Of a DNA stretch of 64,000 nt, positions 11,375 through 64,000 are shown piece after piece. Where the stretch lies: the NCBI GenBank assembly GCA_037367355.1, contig CM074696.1, forward strand, positions 868,001-932,000, in the 5' to 3' direction. This DNA is from Neoscytalidium dimidiatum (Eukaryota > Ascomycota > Dothideomycetes > Botryosphaeriales > Botryosphaeriaceae). How positions within the stretch are numbered: the first letter of the stretch is position 1; each line of letters begins with the position of its first letter. The position numbers and the translations under genes are program-made. The notes under the pieces were generated by a model. That model made no database searches. It saw only the letters and a list, made by a program, of their open reading frames with translations, and had not been told where the DNA came from.

Positions 11375-11464
11375 GCTCCTATGGCTCAGTTGGTAGAGCG
11401 CGGCACTAGTACCTGAGCGTCATCAGCCATGCCGAGGTCCTGAGTTCAAATCTCAGTGGGAGCA
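11375..11464 (+). tRNA. tRNA-Thr (anticodon AGT) with 17-nt intron
   Basis: Acceptor stem GCTCCTA/TGGGAGC, D-stem GCTC/GAGC, anticodon stem CGGCA/TGCCG, T-stem CTGAG/CTCAG with loop TTCAAAT and discriminator A all pair. The anticodon AGT is at 11408-11410. A 17-nt intron (11412-11428) sits after position 37, the canonical place for removal by the tRNA endonuclease. The near-identical copy at 17910-17999 is on the other strand. Decodes ACU/ACC after inosine modification. Confidence 0.95.
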
Positions 11465-17909: not shown

Positions 17910-17999
17910 TGCTCCCACTGAGATTTGAACTCAGGACCTCGGCATGACTGATGAAGCTCAGGTACTAGTGCCGCGCTCTACCAACTGAGCCATAGGAGC
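17910..17999 (-). tRNA. tRNA-Thr (anticodon AGT) with 17-nt intron, second copy
   Basis: Same mature sequence and same stems as the copy at 11375-11464. The 17-nt intron after position 37 differs from the first copy at two places (TT for GT and T for C near its end). Inverted relative to the first copy, 6.4 kb away, with the permease gene between them. Confidence 0.95.
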
Positions 18000-32285: not shown

Positions 32286-32295
32286 AAAAAGAAAA
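32286..32295 (-). terminator. Pol III-type terminator of tRNA-Gly
   Basis: On the minus strand TTTTCTTTTT, starting 13 nt after the discriminator base. No run of four or more T occurs inside the 199-nt gene, introns included. Confidence 0.65.
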
Positions 32296-32327
32296 GGGAA
32301 GCTCTGCTGCGGAAGGCAAGATTCGAA

Positions 32328-32385
32328 CTGTTCCAACTGCATTAGCTCCATGATCTCTGCGTGTCTGTGCGGGAAGCTGTCTTAC
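32328..32385 (-). other. mRNA-type intron 2 of tRNA-Gly (58 nt)
   Basis: Starts GTAAGA, ends GGAACAG, with branch-like GAGCTAAT 18 nt before the end. Removal joins T-stem GCGAG to T-loop TTCGAAT. An earlier CAG six bases after the branch motif would leave an unpaired T-arm, so the downstream acceptor is chosen. Confidence 0.75.
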
Positions 32386-32423
32386 CTCGCGGTCTCTGCT
32401 TTGGGAAAGCAGCGCCTTAACCT

Positions 32424-32491
32424 CTGTATGATGGAAAGAGACATTAGCGGTGTCTTCTTGTATCGGACATGGGAACCGTGTGTCCACTTAC
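32424..32491 (-). other. mRNA-type intron 1 of tRNA-Gly (68 nt)
   Basis: Starts GTAAGT, ends CATACAG, with CCGCTAAT followed by a pyrimidine-rich TCTCTTTCC. Removal restores D-loop AGAGGTTA. Size and signals match protein-gene introns in this window. Confidence 0.75.
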
Positions 32492-32506
32492 CTAGGCCAC
32501 TTCCGC

Positions 32507-33883: not shown

Positions 33884-34978
33884 TCACCAACCCTCAATCT
33901 GGAAATCAAACCTCCGATCCCCCTTCCCCTTCTCAACGGGCCTGCCCTCCCCATCATACAGCGTCCTCTCCACGAACGTGACCTTCCCCTCGCGATCGAC
34001 CAGCACGACCGTCTGCTTCTGGGTGCCGTAGATTCCGCTCGTCGCGTTCACCGTCTCCGTCCCCGTGGCCGCGGCGACCGCATCGGCGGGCTTCTCCCGC
34101 AGCTCGGCGTCGTGGCCGATGCTGGGGATGAAGATGCTGTTGCGCAGCTGGCGGAGGTAGATCTCCCACTGCTCGCCGTTGCGCTGGCGCGGCATCGTGT
34201 CGGCGCTGAGCACGTCGAACAGGCGCCTCAGCAGCGCGTCCTGCGGCTCGGCGGCGGCGACGCTGGCGGCGACGGCGTCGCGCGTGGCCGCTTCGCCCTG
34301 CACGATCTTCGGCCACGAGCGGTCGCCGTAGTGCGAGTTGCTGAGCGCGTGCGTCTCGCCGGGGTGTGCGCCCAGCCAGACCAGGCCCCGGGCGTCCGGG
34401 GTGCGGTTGGAGATGATGGCGAGGCCACGGGGGCCGTGGCCGTTTGCTAGTTTGCTGCTGCTGCTGCTGCTGCTGCTACTGCCGCTGCCGTCTTCGCCTT
34501 CGCCGGCGCGGCGGTCCTTCTGGACGACGTCCTGCAAGCGGCCGTAGAGCAGGCTGAAGCCGCCGACGTGCTTGAGGGCGCCCTCGTCGACCAGGCGCTG
34601 GGCGAAGTCGGCGGGCCCCTCGTGCGAGTCCGGCGGCGTCTTCAGCCAGGCGATGGGGATGGCGCCGCGGCTGCGCTCGTCCTGGATGACGGCGGCGCCC
34701 TCCTCGCGGAAGTTGGTCAGCACGGCGATGCGCCCCTGGCGCGTGATGCCCAGCCAGGTGCCGTGGACGGGCCGGTGCAGGTCGTAGCCGCCTAGGACGT
34801 GCGAGTGCGGCTCCGCCCACCACTGCGCTGGTGCGGTGGGGCGGTGCAGGTATTCCTGGGGGAAATAGAGTCAGTGGCGCCTGTCGTGGGGTCTGGGGTA
34901 GGCCGATCTCACATCTCGGTTGTTGAGGAGGATGAAGGGGTATTGGGGGTGGGCGGTGGTGATGATGGCGATACACAT
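33884..34978 (-). CDS. TANGO2/NRDE family protein
   Basis: Exons 34978-34913 and 34855-33884 give 345 residues. The hallmark Asn-Arg-Asp-Glu motif is split by the intron: FILLNNRD ends exon 1 and EYLHRPTAPAQWW opens exon 2. The N-terminus MCIAII has Cys at position 2, as in Ntn-hydrolase-like TANGO2 proteins, where the second-residue cysteine is conserved. TWLGITRQGRIAVLTNFRE and GLAIISNRT are further family blocks, as is HALSNSHYG. TANGO2 proteins have been linked to Golgi organisation, mitochondria and haem handling; the biochemical reaction is not settled. A poly-Ser run (about residues 135-145) comes from a CTG/CAG-type repeat at 34453-34490 and is probably variable between strains. Confidence 0.9.
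34453..34490 (-). repeat. trinucleotide repeat coding poly-Ser
   Basis: Eight TGC units followed by TACTGCCGC on the + strand, read as AGC serine codons on the minus strand in the TANGO2 gene. Confidence 0.9.
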
Positions 34979-43680: not shown

Positions 43681-45638
43681 TTAAGCCTTCGCATAATCCG
43701 CAACGGCCTCATCGACGAGCTTTCTGTAGCGCTGCTGGTTCTCAACCTGTTCGAGGAAGACCTTGTACTTGGTGGCGAGCAGCTTCTTCTCGCCCTCATC
43801 CTTGGTCGGCTTGATGCACTTGCCGGGCTTGCTGAAGCGATCCATGATCTCCCACAGCGGGGTGCTCTTGCCCTCTTTGTCCGTCGAGGCGGCTTTGGCG
43901 CCCAGCATGGCTGCGCCGTGCACGACGGCTGCGTGGACGTAGCGGGGAATGAGCACCGGCATATTGCACGCGGCGGCGATCAAGTGCATCAGGATCTCGT
44001 TCTGGCACTGCGAGCCGGACATGAAGATGGACGAGATCTGATGGCCGGCTTCGTTCATCGCCGTGACGATCTGGTGAGTCTGCAGGGCGATGAACTCCAT
44101 CGTGCCGAGATACTGCAGCGCCAGAGCGTCCAGCGACTTGTCACTGCTGAGACCAATGATGGAGCCCTTCATGTTGGGATCCGCAATCGGGGAGCGGTTG
44201 CCGAACAGGTCACCGTAGAAGAAGAAGTGCCTTCCGAGCCAGCTGATGAAGGGTGCTTGCGCCTTCTCGGCCATCTCGCGGAGGTGCTCGTTGAGATAGT
44301 CGTAGATATTGGTGTTGAAGGTCTCAGCAACTGACATGGCCTCGTTGAATGCCGGGTGAGTCTCAATCACGTGCTTGAGCAGTTCACCAGTAGCACTCTG
44401 TCCACCTTCTGCCATCCAGTAGTCGGGCAGCAGTACGTCACGGTACGGTCCCCAAACACCTGGGACGAAGACAGGGTTGGGAGACATGGCCAAGTGGCAG
44501 GTAGAGGTACCGGCAACGGCAGCCAGGCGAGTAAAGGCCTGAGAGACATCGTTCTTGGGGGCGTCGGCATTAAGCTCGTCGTCACTCAGCTTGACCTTAG
44601 CACCAACGGTACCGATCCAACCGGCGTAGGCGTCAATGACACCACTACCGACGGCGATACCAGCGGGAAGACCCATATCCTGGGCGGCTCTCTCGCTCAG
44701 CAAGCCGACGAGCTCACCAGCGGTCGAGTATTCTCCGTTCTGCAGACTCAGTTAGCCTGGGGCTGTACAGCAATCAGGAGAGTGAAGGCTAACCACCCCG
44801 TTTACACCGCCCATGCGCTTGAAGTTATCTTCGCACAGCTCCTCCAGGCCGATCTCCTTCAGGAAGTCCTCCTGCCAGCCCTTCACACTGCCATCCACGC
44901 CAACAGGGACGAAGCCCTGCTTGCAGACAACACTGCAGAAGCTACGGGTCTCGTTGCCAGTGGCCATGTGAGTTAGAGCGTCAGTCAAGTCGTAGAATTT
45001 GCACTTGTCGAACAGCTGCTTGGGCATGTTGTTCTTGAGCCAGAGGACCTTGGGGATTTCCATCTCGATGGACATCTTGCCACCGACATAGCGGAGCAGG
45101 TTGTGGTTGGTGTTGTTAATCTTGACCGTCTCGTCGACGGGGCGGTGGTCCAGCCACAGCACGACGTTGCGGTCGTTGCCGTCGCGGTTATCGAAGTTAG
45201 GGCCAGTGATGCACACGGGCTCGTCCGTCTCCGAGTTGAAGACGGCGAGCGAGCAGGTGGCATCGAAGCCAACACCGCGGACGGTAGACGCATCAATGTT
45301 GTGCTGGTCCAGGGCACGGCGGATGGACGAGCAGATGCACCTCCAAATATCGGTGGTGGATTGCTCCTGCGGTGGGATGTCAGCGGCTGTGCAATTGAAG
45401 CAGCTGGAGCGCGCGGACTCACGTAGTAGCCAGTCTGGGGCTGCCAAAGGCCAATGTTCTCAGAGGCAAGGCCAACAATGTCGCCCTGGTCGTTCATGAT
45501 ACAGGCACGCGCGCTGCCGGTACCGACATCGACACCGATGTAGTGATCGACGTGCGGGTGGAGCTCGTTGCGCGGGTCAGTGGACATCTGGCGCGACTGC
45601 TTCCGCGAAGGCGGAGCTCTGTAGGGAAGGGAAGACAT
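43681..45638 (-). CDS. FGGY-family pentulose (ribulose/ribitol-type) kinase
   Basis: Exons 45638-45423, 45366-44797 and 44739-43681 give 614 residues, all phase 0. FGGY kinases phosphorylate sugars with ATP; the branch with yeast YDR109C and human FGGY acts on D-ribulose-type pentuloses. The N-terminal ATP-binding motif is YIGVDVGTGSARACIMND, followed by ENIGLWQPQTGYYEQST. WLDHRPVDE, GVIDAYAGWIGT (catalytic Asp in the D-A-Y-A-G-W turn) and AGTSTCHLAMS are further landmarks. FMSGSQCQNEILMHLIA near the end fits the adenine-binding signature. Start: 45638 has a good context (CCAACCATGTC); an ATG 12 bp upstream in frame is possible. The 15-30 residues before the kinase domain may be a targeting or disordered leader. 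Exact substrate is inferred. Confidence 0.9.
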
Positions 45639-50770: not shown

Positions 50771-52519
50771 ATGAACCGTCAGAGCAACAGCACCCAGCCG
50801 GTGAAGCTAACCGGTGCCGATGTCGCCAAGCACAACTCCAAGGACAGCTGCTGGGTCATTGTCCACGGCCGCGCATACGATGTCACCGAATTCCTGCCAG
50901 AACACCCCGGTGGCCAGAAGATCATCCTCAAGTACGCTGGCAAGGATGCCACCGAGGAGTACGAGCCGATCCACCCGCCCGACACACTCGATAAATACCT
51001 CGATAAGTCGAAGCATCTCGGCGAGGTGGACATGAACACTGTGCAGCAGGAGGAGAAGGCTGAGGATCCGGATGAGAAGGCACGCCAGGAGAGAATTGCC
51101 CGGATGCCAATCCTCGAGCAATGCTACAACCTGATGGACTTCGAGGCGGTGGCAAGGAATGTCATGAAGAAGACCGCATGGGCATATTACTCGAGCGGTG
51201 CTGATGATGAGATTGTAAGACAGCCTCTGACCCGTGGCGCAAGGTCAATGACTGCCGGGCAACTGTGGTGGGACTGGTCGGTACACTCACCTTGACCGGT
51301 GACGCCGTCCAGTTCGCGCATTTCCTACTCAATCGACTCGGTCTGAACATGCCCAATGGTCGATGTTGGCTGACTTTTCTCTCTCCGCAGACTATGCGCG
51401 AAAATCACTCAGCCTTCCACAAGATCTGGTTCAGGCCCAGAGTACTCGTCGACGTCGAGAAGGTCGACTTCTCAACAACGATGCTTGGGACAAAAGTTGA
51501 CATCCCTTTTTACGTCACTGCCACTGCCCTTGGCAAGCTTGGTCACCCAGAGGGTGAGGTGATCCTCACCAGGGGTGCGAAGAAACACAATGTCATCCAG
51601 ATGATTCCCACCCTTGCATCCTGCTCGTTCGATGAGATCGTGGACGCAGCAGAGGATGGCCAGGTGCAATGGCTGCAGCTCTATGTACGTGATTTTTTCT
51701 TTTCTAGAACATATTCTTCTAACTAAGACTGACATGATTCAGGTTAACAAAAACCGCGCCATCACCAAGGGTATTGTCGAACATGCTGAGAAGCGTGGCT
51801 GCAAAGGTCTCTTCATTACCGTGGATGCTCCTCAGCTCGGACGCCGTGAGAAGGATATGCGGAGCAAATTCGATGATGTCGGCTCAAACGTCCAGAGTTC
51901 CTCGGGCGATAACGTCGACCGCTCCCAGGGTGCTGCCCGCGCCATATCCTCCTTCATCGATCCCTCTCTGAGCTGGAAGGATATTCCCTGGTTCCAGTCC
52001 ATCACCAAGATGCCCATCATTCTCAAGGGTGTGCAGTGCGTCGAGGACGTGCTTAAGGCTATCGAAGCTGGCGTTCAGGGCGTCGTTCTATCTAACCACG
52101 GTGGTCGCCAACTCGATTTTGCCCGCTCCGGTGTCGAAGTTCTTGCCGAGGTTATGCCAATCCTACGCGAGAGGGGATTGGAGAATAAGATCGAGATCTA
52201 CATTGACGGTGGTGTCCGTCGCGCGACCGACATCATCAAGGCGCTCTGCCTAGGTGCAAAGGGTGTCGGTATCGGCCGCCCATTCCTGTATGCAATGTCC
52301 GCATACGGCCTGCCTGGTGTTGATCGTGCTATGCAACTTCTCAAGGACGAGATGGAGATGAACATGCGCTTGATCGGATGTTCAAGCATCGACCAGCTCA
52401 ACCCTAACCTACTCGATACCAGGGGTCTTAGTTTTCACAGTGCCAGCGTGCCGTCGGACACATTGAGCTTGAATGTGTACGACCCATTGGTCGGGCCTAA
52501 GGAGAAGGCGAAGTTGTAA
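50771..52519 (+). CDS. cytochrome b2-like FMN-dependent 2-hydroxyacid (lactate) dehydrogenase
   Basis: Exons 50771-51214, 51391-51684 and 51743-52519 give 504 residues, all phase 0. Flavocytochrome b2 oxidises L-lactate to pyruvate. The N-terminal cytochrome b5 domain (about 10-88) has the haem ligands in FLPEHPGGQ (His45) and EEYEPIHPP (His68). The FMN domain (about 118-490) shows AWAYYSSGADDE, the IILKGVQ lysine (about 341), the catalytic base in LSNHGGRQLDFA (His365) and EIYIDGGVRRATDI plus GVGIGRPFLYA for phosphate binding. Length fits the family, but there is no N-terminal presequence: the b5 domain starts within 12 residues, whereas yeast Cyb2 has a long mitochondrial leader. The protein may therefore be cytosolic, or act on another hydroxyacid. 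The first intron (176 nt) is long for this window. Confidence 0.9.
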
Positions 52520-62754: not shown

Positions 62755-64000
62755 TTAACGGATCCCAATAGTCGGGAATGTGTCAATGAATGCTTCACAG
62801 TCTGCGCAATGGTTAGCATAGGGCCAGCAGGGGAAACCGTGTGAACTGACCTTGCCGCAATTTGAAGCGCAGCTCAAAACGACCATCTCTGCCTCTGGGC
62901 GGCGAGTAATTGTCGCAGAAGACGTATGGGTGAAGAGTGCTCAAAGAAAGAATCCTCGGGCCTACACGGCGCATCCATCCATCGAGGCCGATATACGGCG
63001 TCACAAACGCTGTCCATATCGGCGTCTTCTGCATGGGGCCCCGGCGAGCTGTTGCCTCGAAACGGACAGCACCGGTATTCCTGTCCTTGAATACCCGGAA
63101 GGCATGAAGGTAGCGGTCATCCTCTATTTCTGCCGAGAATTCCATATCCTCGCCGTTTTGGAAGTAGTCCTCGACGTTAAGAGGGCTGTCAACACCATCT
63201 TGCCGTTTCAATGCCACGGCAGTGCAAAAGAACAGGACCATCCTTTCGTAGAAAGTGAAACGAAGGTTTGCCCAAAGGTCCAGGCGGTTGCCGTCAAACT
63301 GGTTGCCTCTGGACAACTGCAGACAGGTACCAACACGCCGAATGTTCAAAGAAGTAAGCGGAATACAATGGCGGTAGCGTCGGCCAAGTCGATCTTTGGT
63401 GAGGAACAGAAGTCTTGCGCGATGATCTGTTGGTCGCCAGTATAGCCGCACAAACGCATCTGCTGCATCAAATGGCCTTATTGAATTAGCAGGTTGGTTT
63501 CGCAGTGAAGAAGGCTACTTACTGCTCAACCACCTTGAGGAAGCCTTCACCCCAGAGCCTATTCACTGCCTCAGGGATGTCCCTTCCAAGACATCTCGTT
63601 CTGGCCATCGTGTTAGTACAACGTGTGGCATTCGATCTCTGCGGATCTTACGGTTGGCCCAGATTCCCGCGGAACGGCGTCATTGGGTGCAATCCATCAA
63701 AAATTTTATTTGCCCAGTGGATTGGACTATATGAGCCGTTAGAATCCAGACTCGGGGACGTCGGAAACGAGGCATAGGTCTCGAAGGAGGAATTGGAAAA
63801 CGTCGGCGAAAGAGGTGCCTGAGGCGCTGCTGGTGGAGGCGCAAACATTTCGTCACTGTCCCAATCATCCGAGCTTGTGTTTGGGGACTGGTGCATATAT
63901 GGTGGATTTGCACGCAGGGGAGGCCTGGCTGCGGGTATTCTAGGCTGCGCTGGTGGAGACCCTATTTACGTATCAGCCTCGTACGAATGGCATTTTTATT
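62755..64000 (-). CDS. unrecognised conserved-looking fungal protein, partial at the right edge
   Basis: Four exons can be joined in phase: 63961-63652, 63600-63523, 63476-62851 and 62801-62755, giving about 353 residues plus an unseen N-terminus (an acceptor TAG precedes 63961, so more exons lie beyond the window). The start of the visible part is Pro/Ser-rich, with SSDDWDSDEMFAPPPAAP and FDGLHPMTPFRGNLGQP. Then a compact domain follows: VNRLWGEGFLKVVEQPFDAA, FVRLYWRPTDHRARLLFLT, YRHCIPLTSLNIRRVGTCLQ, WANLRFTFYERMVLFFCTAV and, at the end, LRQDCEAFIDTFPTIGIR. The strand-rich pattern with a terminal helix is reminiscent of a PH-like fold, but I do not recognise the family and assign no function. 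Introns have good signals (GTAAGA with CTAAC branch; GTAAGT with GCTAAT branch). Confidence 0.7.

Follow-up and report, generated by a model that had tools for sequence, protein, structure and literature searches.

Introns with spliceosomal signals in a tRNA-Gly(CCC) gene and in other tRNA genes of Neoscytalidium dimidiatum

Interrupted small RNA genes and the tRNA-Gly(CCC) locus

An mRNA-type intron in U6 snRNA occurs in S. pombe and in other fungi; the S. pombe U6 is a Pol III transcript from which the spliceosome removes it (PMC8917221). U6 is itself a component of the spliceosome, whereas the interrupted RNAs considered here are tRNAs. The U3 snoRNA of fungi, likewise small and structured, contains spliceosomal introns of the normal type (PMC5832005), but it is not a tRNA and represents a single gene family; according to the same text, from 2017, no small structured RNAs other than U3 and U6 are known to be frequently interrupted by an intron. 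The initial annotation of the locus had named S. pombe U6 as the sole precedent, a statement that fungal U3 makes too narrow.

Canonical introns of nuclear tRNA genes, removed by the tRNA endonuclease (TSEN), are found in the same class of genes, and in the tRNA-Phe and tRNA-Ala genes of this fungus they coexist with introns of mRNA type. They differ in that they lie at position 37/38 and lack GT-AG borders and a branch site (none of 13 here has GT-AG borders; see below). Archaea, Cyanidioschyzon merolae and nucleomorphs have tRNA introns in the D arm, the anticodon stem and the T arm, and a gene may contain several; in this respect these introns are similar to those described here. In archaea and C. 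merolae they are described as bulge-helix-bulge substrates of the endonuclease (PMC4090602, available part), whereas the inserts studied here bear splice signals and for the most part lack that motif. The same part of PMC4090602, which is concerned with non-canonical tRNA introns, gives the splicing mode of the very short nucleomorph introns as unknown, and no word beginning "spliceosom-" occurs in it. A study of Aspergillus tRNA promoters removed 14 tRNA models with introns longer than 100 nt (PMC6108506). Among the matches listed by a search of the open-licence literature, covering titles and the beginnings of abstracts, there was no report of spliceosomal introns in tRNA genes.

The window, i.e. 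the whole stretch of DNA that was analysed, is 64,000 nt long and belongs to a genome assembled into 40 contigs with a total of 43.76 Mb. Its encoded proteins include TANGO2, cytochrome b2 and an FGGY kinase, whose best matches are among Botryosphaeria, Macrophomina, Neofusicoccum, Diplodia and Lasiodiplodia, all of them Botryosphaeriaceae. On the minus strand of the window, at 32506-32308, three exons of 15, 38 and 20 nt are separated by two inserts of 68 and 58 nt. Joined, the exons make a 73-mer that ARAGORN calls tRNA-Gly(CCC), in agreement with the initial annotation. The features of the locus, with the boxes judged against the A-box consensus TRGYNNAGNGG and the B-box consensus, are as follows.

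32492..32506, minus strand: exon 1, nucleotides 1-15 of tRNA-Gly(CCC), placed by the letters, ARAGORN and stem pairing
32484..32494, minus strand: A-box-like TAGGTAAGTGG, of putative function, spanning the 5' splice site in the gene before splicing, with 1 mismatch to TRGYNNAGNGG
32424..32491, minus strand: intron 1, 68 nt, GTAAGT...GCTAAT...ATACAG, after nucleotide 15 (D loop, within the A box)
32443..32448, minus strand: GCTAAT of intron 1, branch-site-like, with 19 nt of intron after it
32386..32423, minus strand: exon 2, nucleotides 16-53, bearing the CCC anticodon
32328..32385, minus strand: intron 2, 58 nt, GTAAGA...GCTAAT...GAACAG, after nucleotide 53 (start of the T loop, within the B box)
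32341..32346, minus strand: GCTAAT of intron 2, branch-site-like, with 13 nt of intron after it
32320..32329, minus strand: B box AGTTCGAATC, whole in the unspliced gene
32308..32327, minus strand: exon 3, nucleotides 54-73, with discriminator A
32286..32295, minus strand: TTTTCTTTTT, Pol III terminator-like, 12 nt past the 3' end of the tRNA

All 21 of 21 stem pairs form in the 73-mer; the acceptor, D and anticodon stems are entirely Watson-Crick, and the one G-U pair, which had been noticed before, is in the T stem. Both inserts begin with GTAAG and end with ACAG, so that each shows the signs of a U2-type intron, namely GT, AG and a GCTAAT that reads as a CTRAY branch site. The protein-gene intron at 63477-63522, to which the inserts had been compared as also ending in CAG, ends in AAG in our reading and is itself putative. 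The insertion sites are 15/16 and 53/54, away from the canonical TSEN position 37/38, as had been claimed; the two tRNA-Thr(AGT) genes of the window, at 11375-11464 (plus strand) and 17910-17999 (minus strand), face each other about 6.4 kb apart and have 17-nt introns at the ordinary site.

The Rfam tRNA model and intron-allowing ARAGORN find only these two Thr tRNAs in the window. With a lowered threshold ARAGORN returns 205 mostly spurious genes, among them the Gly locus with a single 115-nt intron, and these matches were left unused. One detail of the locus counts against the spliceosomal reading: an AG nearer to the branch site of intron 2 (GCAG) would yield a wrong product of 82 nt.

We consider this a nuclear tRNA-Gly(CCC) gene with two spliceosomal (U2-type) introns, one of a set of such genes in N. 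dimidiatum, with a probability of about 0.86 as judged from sequence. The initial annotation favoured spliceosomal introns as well, and that reading is now strongly supported by eight further tRNA genes in this genome, among them every initiator gene found.

Splice-aware scans and the other tRNA genes

We scanned for tRNAs that appear only after splicing. The intron was predefined as GTRNG...CTRAY...YAG of 40-120 nt, one or two such introns were removed everywhere, and ARAGORN was run on the product. Among 162 candidate splicings in the window (195 with slightly wider limits), the tRNA-Gly(CCC) gene was the sole gene to appear; with the wider limits it appears twice, because the nearer AG of intron 2 is accepted too. 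In 150 dinucleotide-shuffled windows, none of 35,723 candidates gave a tRNA. As the exon boundaries were first chosen by eye, the resemblance to a tRNA might be suspected to be accidental, but the shuffled candidates and the eight further tRNA genes with such introns effectively refute this.

In 101 loci fetched from the genome (295,457 bases, overlapping loci counted in), the strict forward motif had 910 candidates and gave five distinct tRNA readings, of which two belong to the Gly gene of the window, two to initiator tRNAs and one to a trimmed ordinary tRNA-Arg. The reversed motif gave one in 944, also a trimmed Arg. The first 61 of these loci (489 candidates) had already produced an initiator tRNA-Met. 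The Phe and Ala genes escape the strict motif, and a wider motif finds them together with false matches; the shuffle and reversed controls apply to the strict motif only. The relaxed scan (22,769 candidates) had 21 distinct matches, which we count as six real genes, nine alternative readings of those, and six false ones, all of them ordinary tRNAs trimmed by a chance occurrence of the motif (one Thr, two Arg readings, one Lys, one Val and one called Leu). A locus read after fetching, L098, was without a tRNA call.

A genome search with the spliced initiator tRNA-Met identified three loci, all split at 24/25:

C3:1838956-1839077 (L062): initiator tRNA-Met, 54-nt intron GTATGT...ACTAAC...CCAG
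C7:2396460-2396581 (L063): initiator tRNA-Met, 57-nt intron GTAAGT...ACTAAC...ATAG
C4:3550946-3551066 (L064): initiator tRNA-Met, 56-nt intron GTAAGC...ACTAAT...ATAG

All bear the marks of an initiator: an A1-T72 pair, three G-C pairs next to the anticodon loop and an ATCGAAA T loop. The C7 and C4 tRNAs are identical, and where C3 has A-T at pairs 6:67 and 7:66 they have C-G and G-C. In each of these acceptor pairs one side is in exon 1 and the other in exon 2; such paired changes across the intron indicate that the exons evolved as one folded RNA. The introns share GT, CTAAC or CTAAT, and AG, and are otherwise unlike: their pairwise identities (65%, 66% and 65%) are no closer than shuffles, with maxima of 65%, 70% and 68%.

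The search with the spliced form found no contiguous, unsplit copy of the initiator tRNA-Met in the 43.8-Mb genome. Four copies of the anticodon arm GGGCTCATAACCC are present, in the three initiator genes and at C12:1574914; the latter, known by this match only, does not match the spliced initiator and is absent among the tRNA-model matches listed. The Rfam tRNA matches listed for the genome lack all three initiator genes, and ARAGORN misnames two of them as Ser and SeC and misses the third. In other collections the initiator acceptor pattern matched 17 stretches from a viral collection and 25 from prokaryotes. None of these 42 has the eukaryotic initiator T-loop motif, and hence they say nothing about fungi; 36 are plain tRNA-Met calls, and three gave a spliced Met reading too, as trimmed ordinary tRNAs.

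Three of the five tRNA-Phe loci are split at 30/31, and the intron was read in all three (L083 on the minus strand, L100 and L101): 61 nt, GTCAGT...ACTAAC...GCAG; 54 nt, GTAAGC...ACTAAC...ACAG; and 54 nt, GTTAGT...ACTAAC...ACAG. Each of these genes has a further insert at the ordinary site as well. Two of the three intron pairs exceed shuffles (69% and 66%, against a maximum of 62%) and the third does not (65% against 67%), so that the Phe introns are probably of common ancestry and hence not independent. The other two loci, known by coordinates, match end to end with about 28 and about 32 extra bases, which fit an ordinary intron alone, and are unsplit at 30/31.

The tRNA-Ala(CGC) gene (L078) combines a 51-nt intron, GTTAGT...GCTAAT...TTAG, at 15/16 with a 14-nt intron near the ordinary site. 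A tRNA-Ala(AGC) gene recognised by eye (L099) has a 56-nt intron, GTGAGT...ACTAAA...GTAG, at 19/20 and a 21-nt ordinary intron. It is one of six Ala(AGC) loci. In this locus and three more, exon 1 directly abuts GTRAG, which in the three further loci, judged by coordinates and pattern only, lies about 58-59 nt before exon 2. At C9:1013075 exon 2 starts at the same place and exon 1 is unmatched, and C4:2707178, also known by coordinates only, is unsplit at the site of the extra intron. Thus, by their sequences, at least one tRNA-Ala(AGC) gene, one tRNA-Ala(CGC) gene and three of five tRNA-Phe genes carry introns of mRNA type; the two unsplit Phe loci and the unsplit Ala(AGC) locus count against the spliceosomal interpretation.

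The tRNA survey covers the fetched loci, some Ala and Phe loci being known by coordinates only, and genome-wide Rfam tRNA counts are lower bounds. Several observations were made alongside it. One of five pattern matches, at C11:933170-933187 (minus strand), matches Ala exon 1 plus the 5' splice site with one mismatch and lies outside the six Ala(AGC) loci. The tRNA-Gly(GCC) genes (L075 and L091) have long introns, 64 and 67 nt, at the ordinary site, without GT-AG. About 45 of the 59 matches of one genome pattern search belong to a dispersed repeat with CTAATATCTATCTATACGGACGCGAGTTCGATTC or close variants (for example L032, L035 and L050); it has a B-box-like end and is perhaps a transposon. 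On contig C40, tRNA matches are paired at a distance of about 176.85 kb, which would fit a mitochondrial genome assembled twice in tandem.

Intron type and transcription signals

Ten introns, from the Gly gene and the eight other tRNA genes (three initiator, three Phe, Ala-CGC and Ala-AGC), were read letter by letter. They are 51-68 nt long; all ten have GT-AG borders, nine have CTAAC or CTAAT, and the tenth (Ala-AGC) has CTAAA. For comparison we took the 13 distinct introns that ARAGORN places at tRNA nucleotides 36-40 in the fetched loci, leaving out a misread initiator (called SeC), introns at nucleotides 33-34, the Thr genes of the window and those introns of the Phe and Ala genes that lie at the ordinary site. 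Sliding the borders by up to 3 nt yields a GT-AG reading for none of these 13. Fisher's exact test for 10/10 versus 0/13 gives 9e-7, which is a guide only, as paralogues are not independent and some of the ten were found by motif. With the five not found by motif (initiators C7 and C4, Phe C5 and C9, all by homology, and Ala-AGC, with borders by eye), 5/5 versus 0/13 gives 1e-4, again a guide only because of the dependence of paralogues.

Four protein-gene introns of the window were placed with the help of homologous proteins and are listed here without strand:

34856-34912: protein-gene intron
44740-44793: protein-gene intron
45367-45422: protein-gene intron
51685-51742: protein-gene intron

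In this small sample (n = 4) the lengths are 54, 56, 57 and 58 nt, the introns start with GTTAGC, GTGAGT, GTGAGA or GTACGT, and they contain CTAAC or CTGAC. An apparent intron at 51514-51663, an artefact of greedy search, and a 176-nt candidate at 51215-51390 were left out of the comparison. Judged by size and motifs in the sequence, the tRNA introns are of the same kind as the protein-gene introns of the window.

The inserts might instead be cut by a TSEN whose specificity has broadened, as is the case in red algae, nucleomorphs and archaea, the GT-AG borders being incidental. Non-canonical introns are indeed described at 53/54 in archaea, in the D and T arms in nucleomorphs and in similar places in Cyanidioschyzon (PMC4090602), and ordinary tRNA introns are present in this genome. 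Yet a simple test for the bulge-helix-bulge motif, in which a 4-bp helix lies between two 3-nt bulges at the junctions, taking the best of three registers, finds the full central helix of four pairs in only one of the ten introns (Ala-CGC), and only one of four central pairs in either Gly intron. The occurrence of GT-AG with CTAA in ten of ten inserts and in none of the 13 ordinary introns of the same genome, and the agreement in length (51-68 versus 54-58 nt) and motifs with the four protein-gene introns, also speak against this explanation, which we regard as very improbable.

Group I and group II introns, which have a catalytic core and are far longer than 70 nt, were rejected on size (51-68 nt here); the only Rfam matches at gathering level in the window are the two tRNAs.

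The transcription signals have to be considered together with another alternative, that the exons sit in a Pol II transcript, a long non-coding RNA or an untranslated region, which is spliced like an mRNA and from which the tRNA is excised. Spliceosomal introns are normally found in Pol II transcripts. The B boxes, however, are retained in the Gly gene and in both Ala genes; that of the Gly gene is preserved in the DNA, since the AG at the end of intron 2 repeats the one that closes exon 2. T runs follow the 3' end in most of the genes, with TTTT beginning within 25 nt in 5 of 7 (background 6%), and the initiator genes are at three separate loci. Transcription by Pol II is in our opinion quite improbable. 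The A-box region is left undivided by introns at 19/20, 24/25 and 30/31, and in Ala-CGC the A box differs at one position from a looser version of the consensus. The Phe gene on C2 has no TTTT before 48 nt downstream and Ala-AGC (L099) none before 35 nt, which counts against Pol III. On the whole, the box and T-run signals in the sequence agree with transcription by Pol III and are no proof of it. The genome has one match to U6 snRNA above the Rfam cut-off, at C5:1524025-1524126, and it is intronless; this counts against the spliceosomal interpretation, and implies that the introns have not simply spread over all Pol III genes.

Probable function of the Gly gene and the proposed role of the spliceosome

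The genome also contains an ordinary tRNA-Gly(CCC) gene, with a 14-nt intron at the ordinary site (C9:77263-77348), and so the gene in the window is not the sole decoder. The latter could be a dispensable pseudogene, left by the recent insertion of two introns into a tRNA gene; besides the existence of the ordinary gene, this idea gains from the lack of a second match to the locus in the genome. In comparing the 21 stem pairs of the two genes, however, we found nine with both sides changed and pairing kept, nine the same, two changed on one side and one that is unpaired in the ordinary gene. The doubly changed pairs include acceptor, D and T pairs spanning the introns. If the two genes are homologous, nine such changes suggest that both have long been under constraint. 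Every stem pair of the window gene is intact, both introns have complete signals, and the same kind of intron is found in other tRNA genes of this genome, some with an essential role. We therefore think a pseudogene unlikely; the gene is probably functional, with odds of about 7:1 on this comparative evidence.

If the tRNA-Gly(CCC) gene is spliced as we propose, Pol III would transcribe it from internal A and B boxes that are usable despite the introns, and would stop at the T run. The spliceosome would recognise GTAAG, GCTAAT and CAG and remove both introns; we infer this removal from the motifs, the paralogues and the need for an initiator tRNA. The joined exons are predicted to fold into the standard cloverleaf, as they do in silico, and the product would then be trimmed, receive CCA, be modified and be charged with glycine. 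Phe and Ala precursors would also need the tRNA endonuclease at the ordinary site, so that two splicing machines would work on one precursor.

The initiator introns possibly carry more weight than the Gly finding in the window. As no unsplit initiator gene was found, spliceosomal splicing of tRNA should be essential for translation. The spliceosome is quite likely to be an obligatory enzyme of tRNA maturation in this fungus, by which every initiator tRNA-Met would have to be spliced before protein synthesis starts, and some Phe and Ala precursors would pass through both machines.

How the spliceosome would recognise an uncapped, very short precursor with a tRNA exon of 15 nt, and how Pol III promoters internal to the gene tolerate introns, are questions raised by these genes. 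Standard tRNA finders would miss essential tRNAs, as with the initiator genes. If the proposal is true, nuclear tRNAs would have a third splicing route, and the introns would have been gained by the same process that spreads introns in mRNA genes. tRNA genes with mRNA-type introns would tie translation initiation to mRNA splicing, and, if so, the capacity for pre-mRNA splicing would directly gate the initiation of translation in N. dimidiatum.
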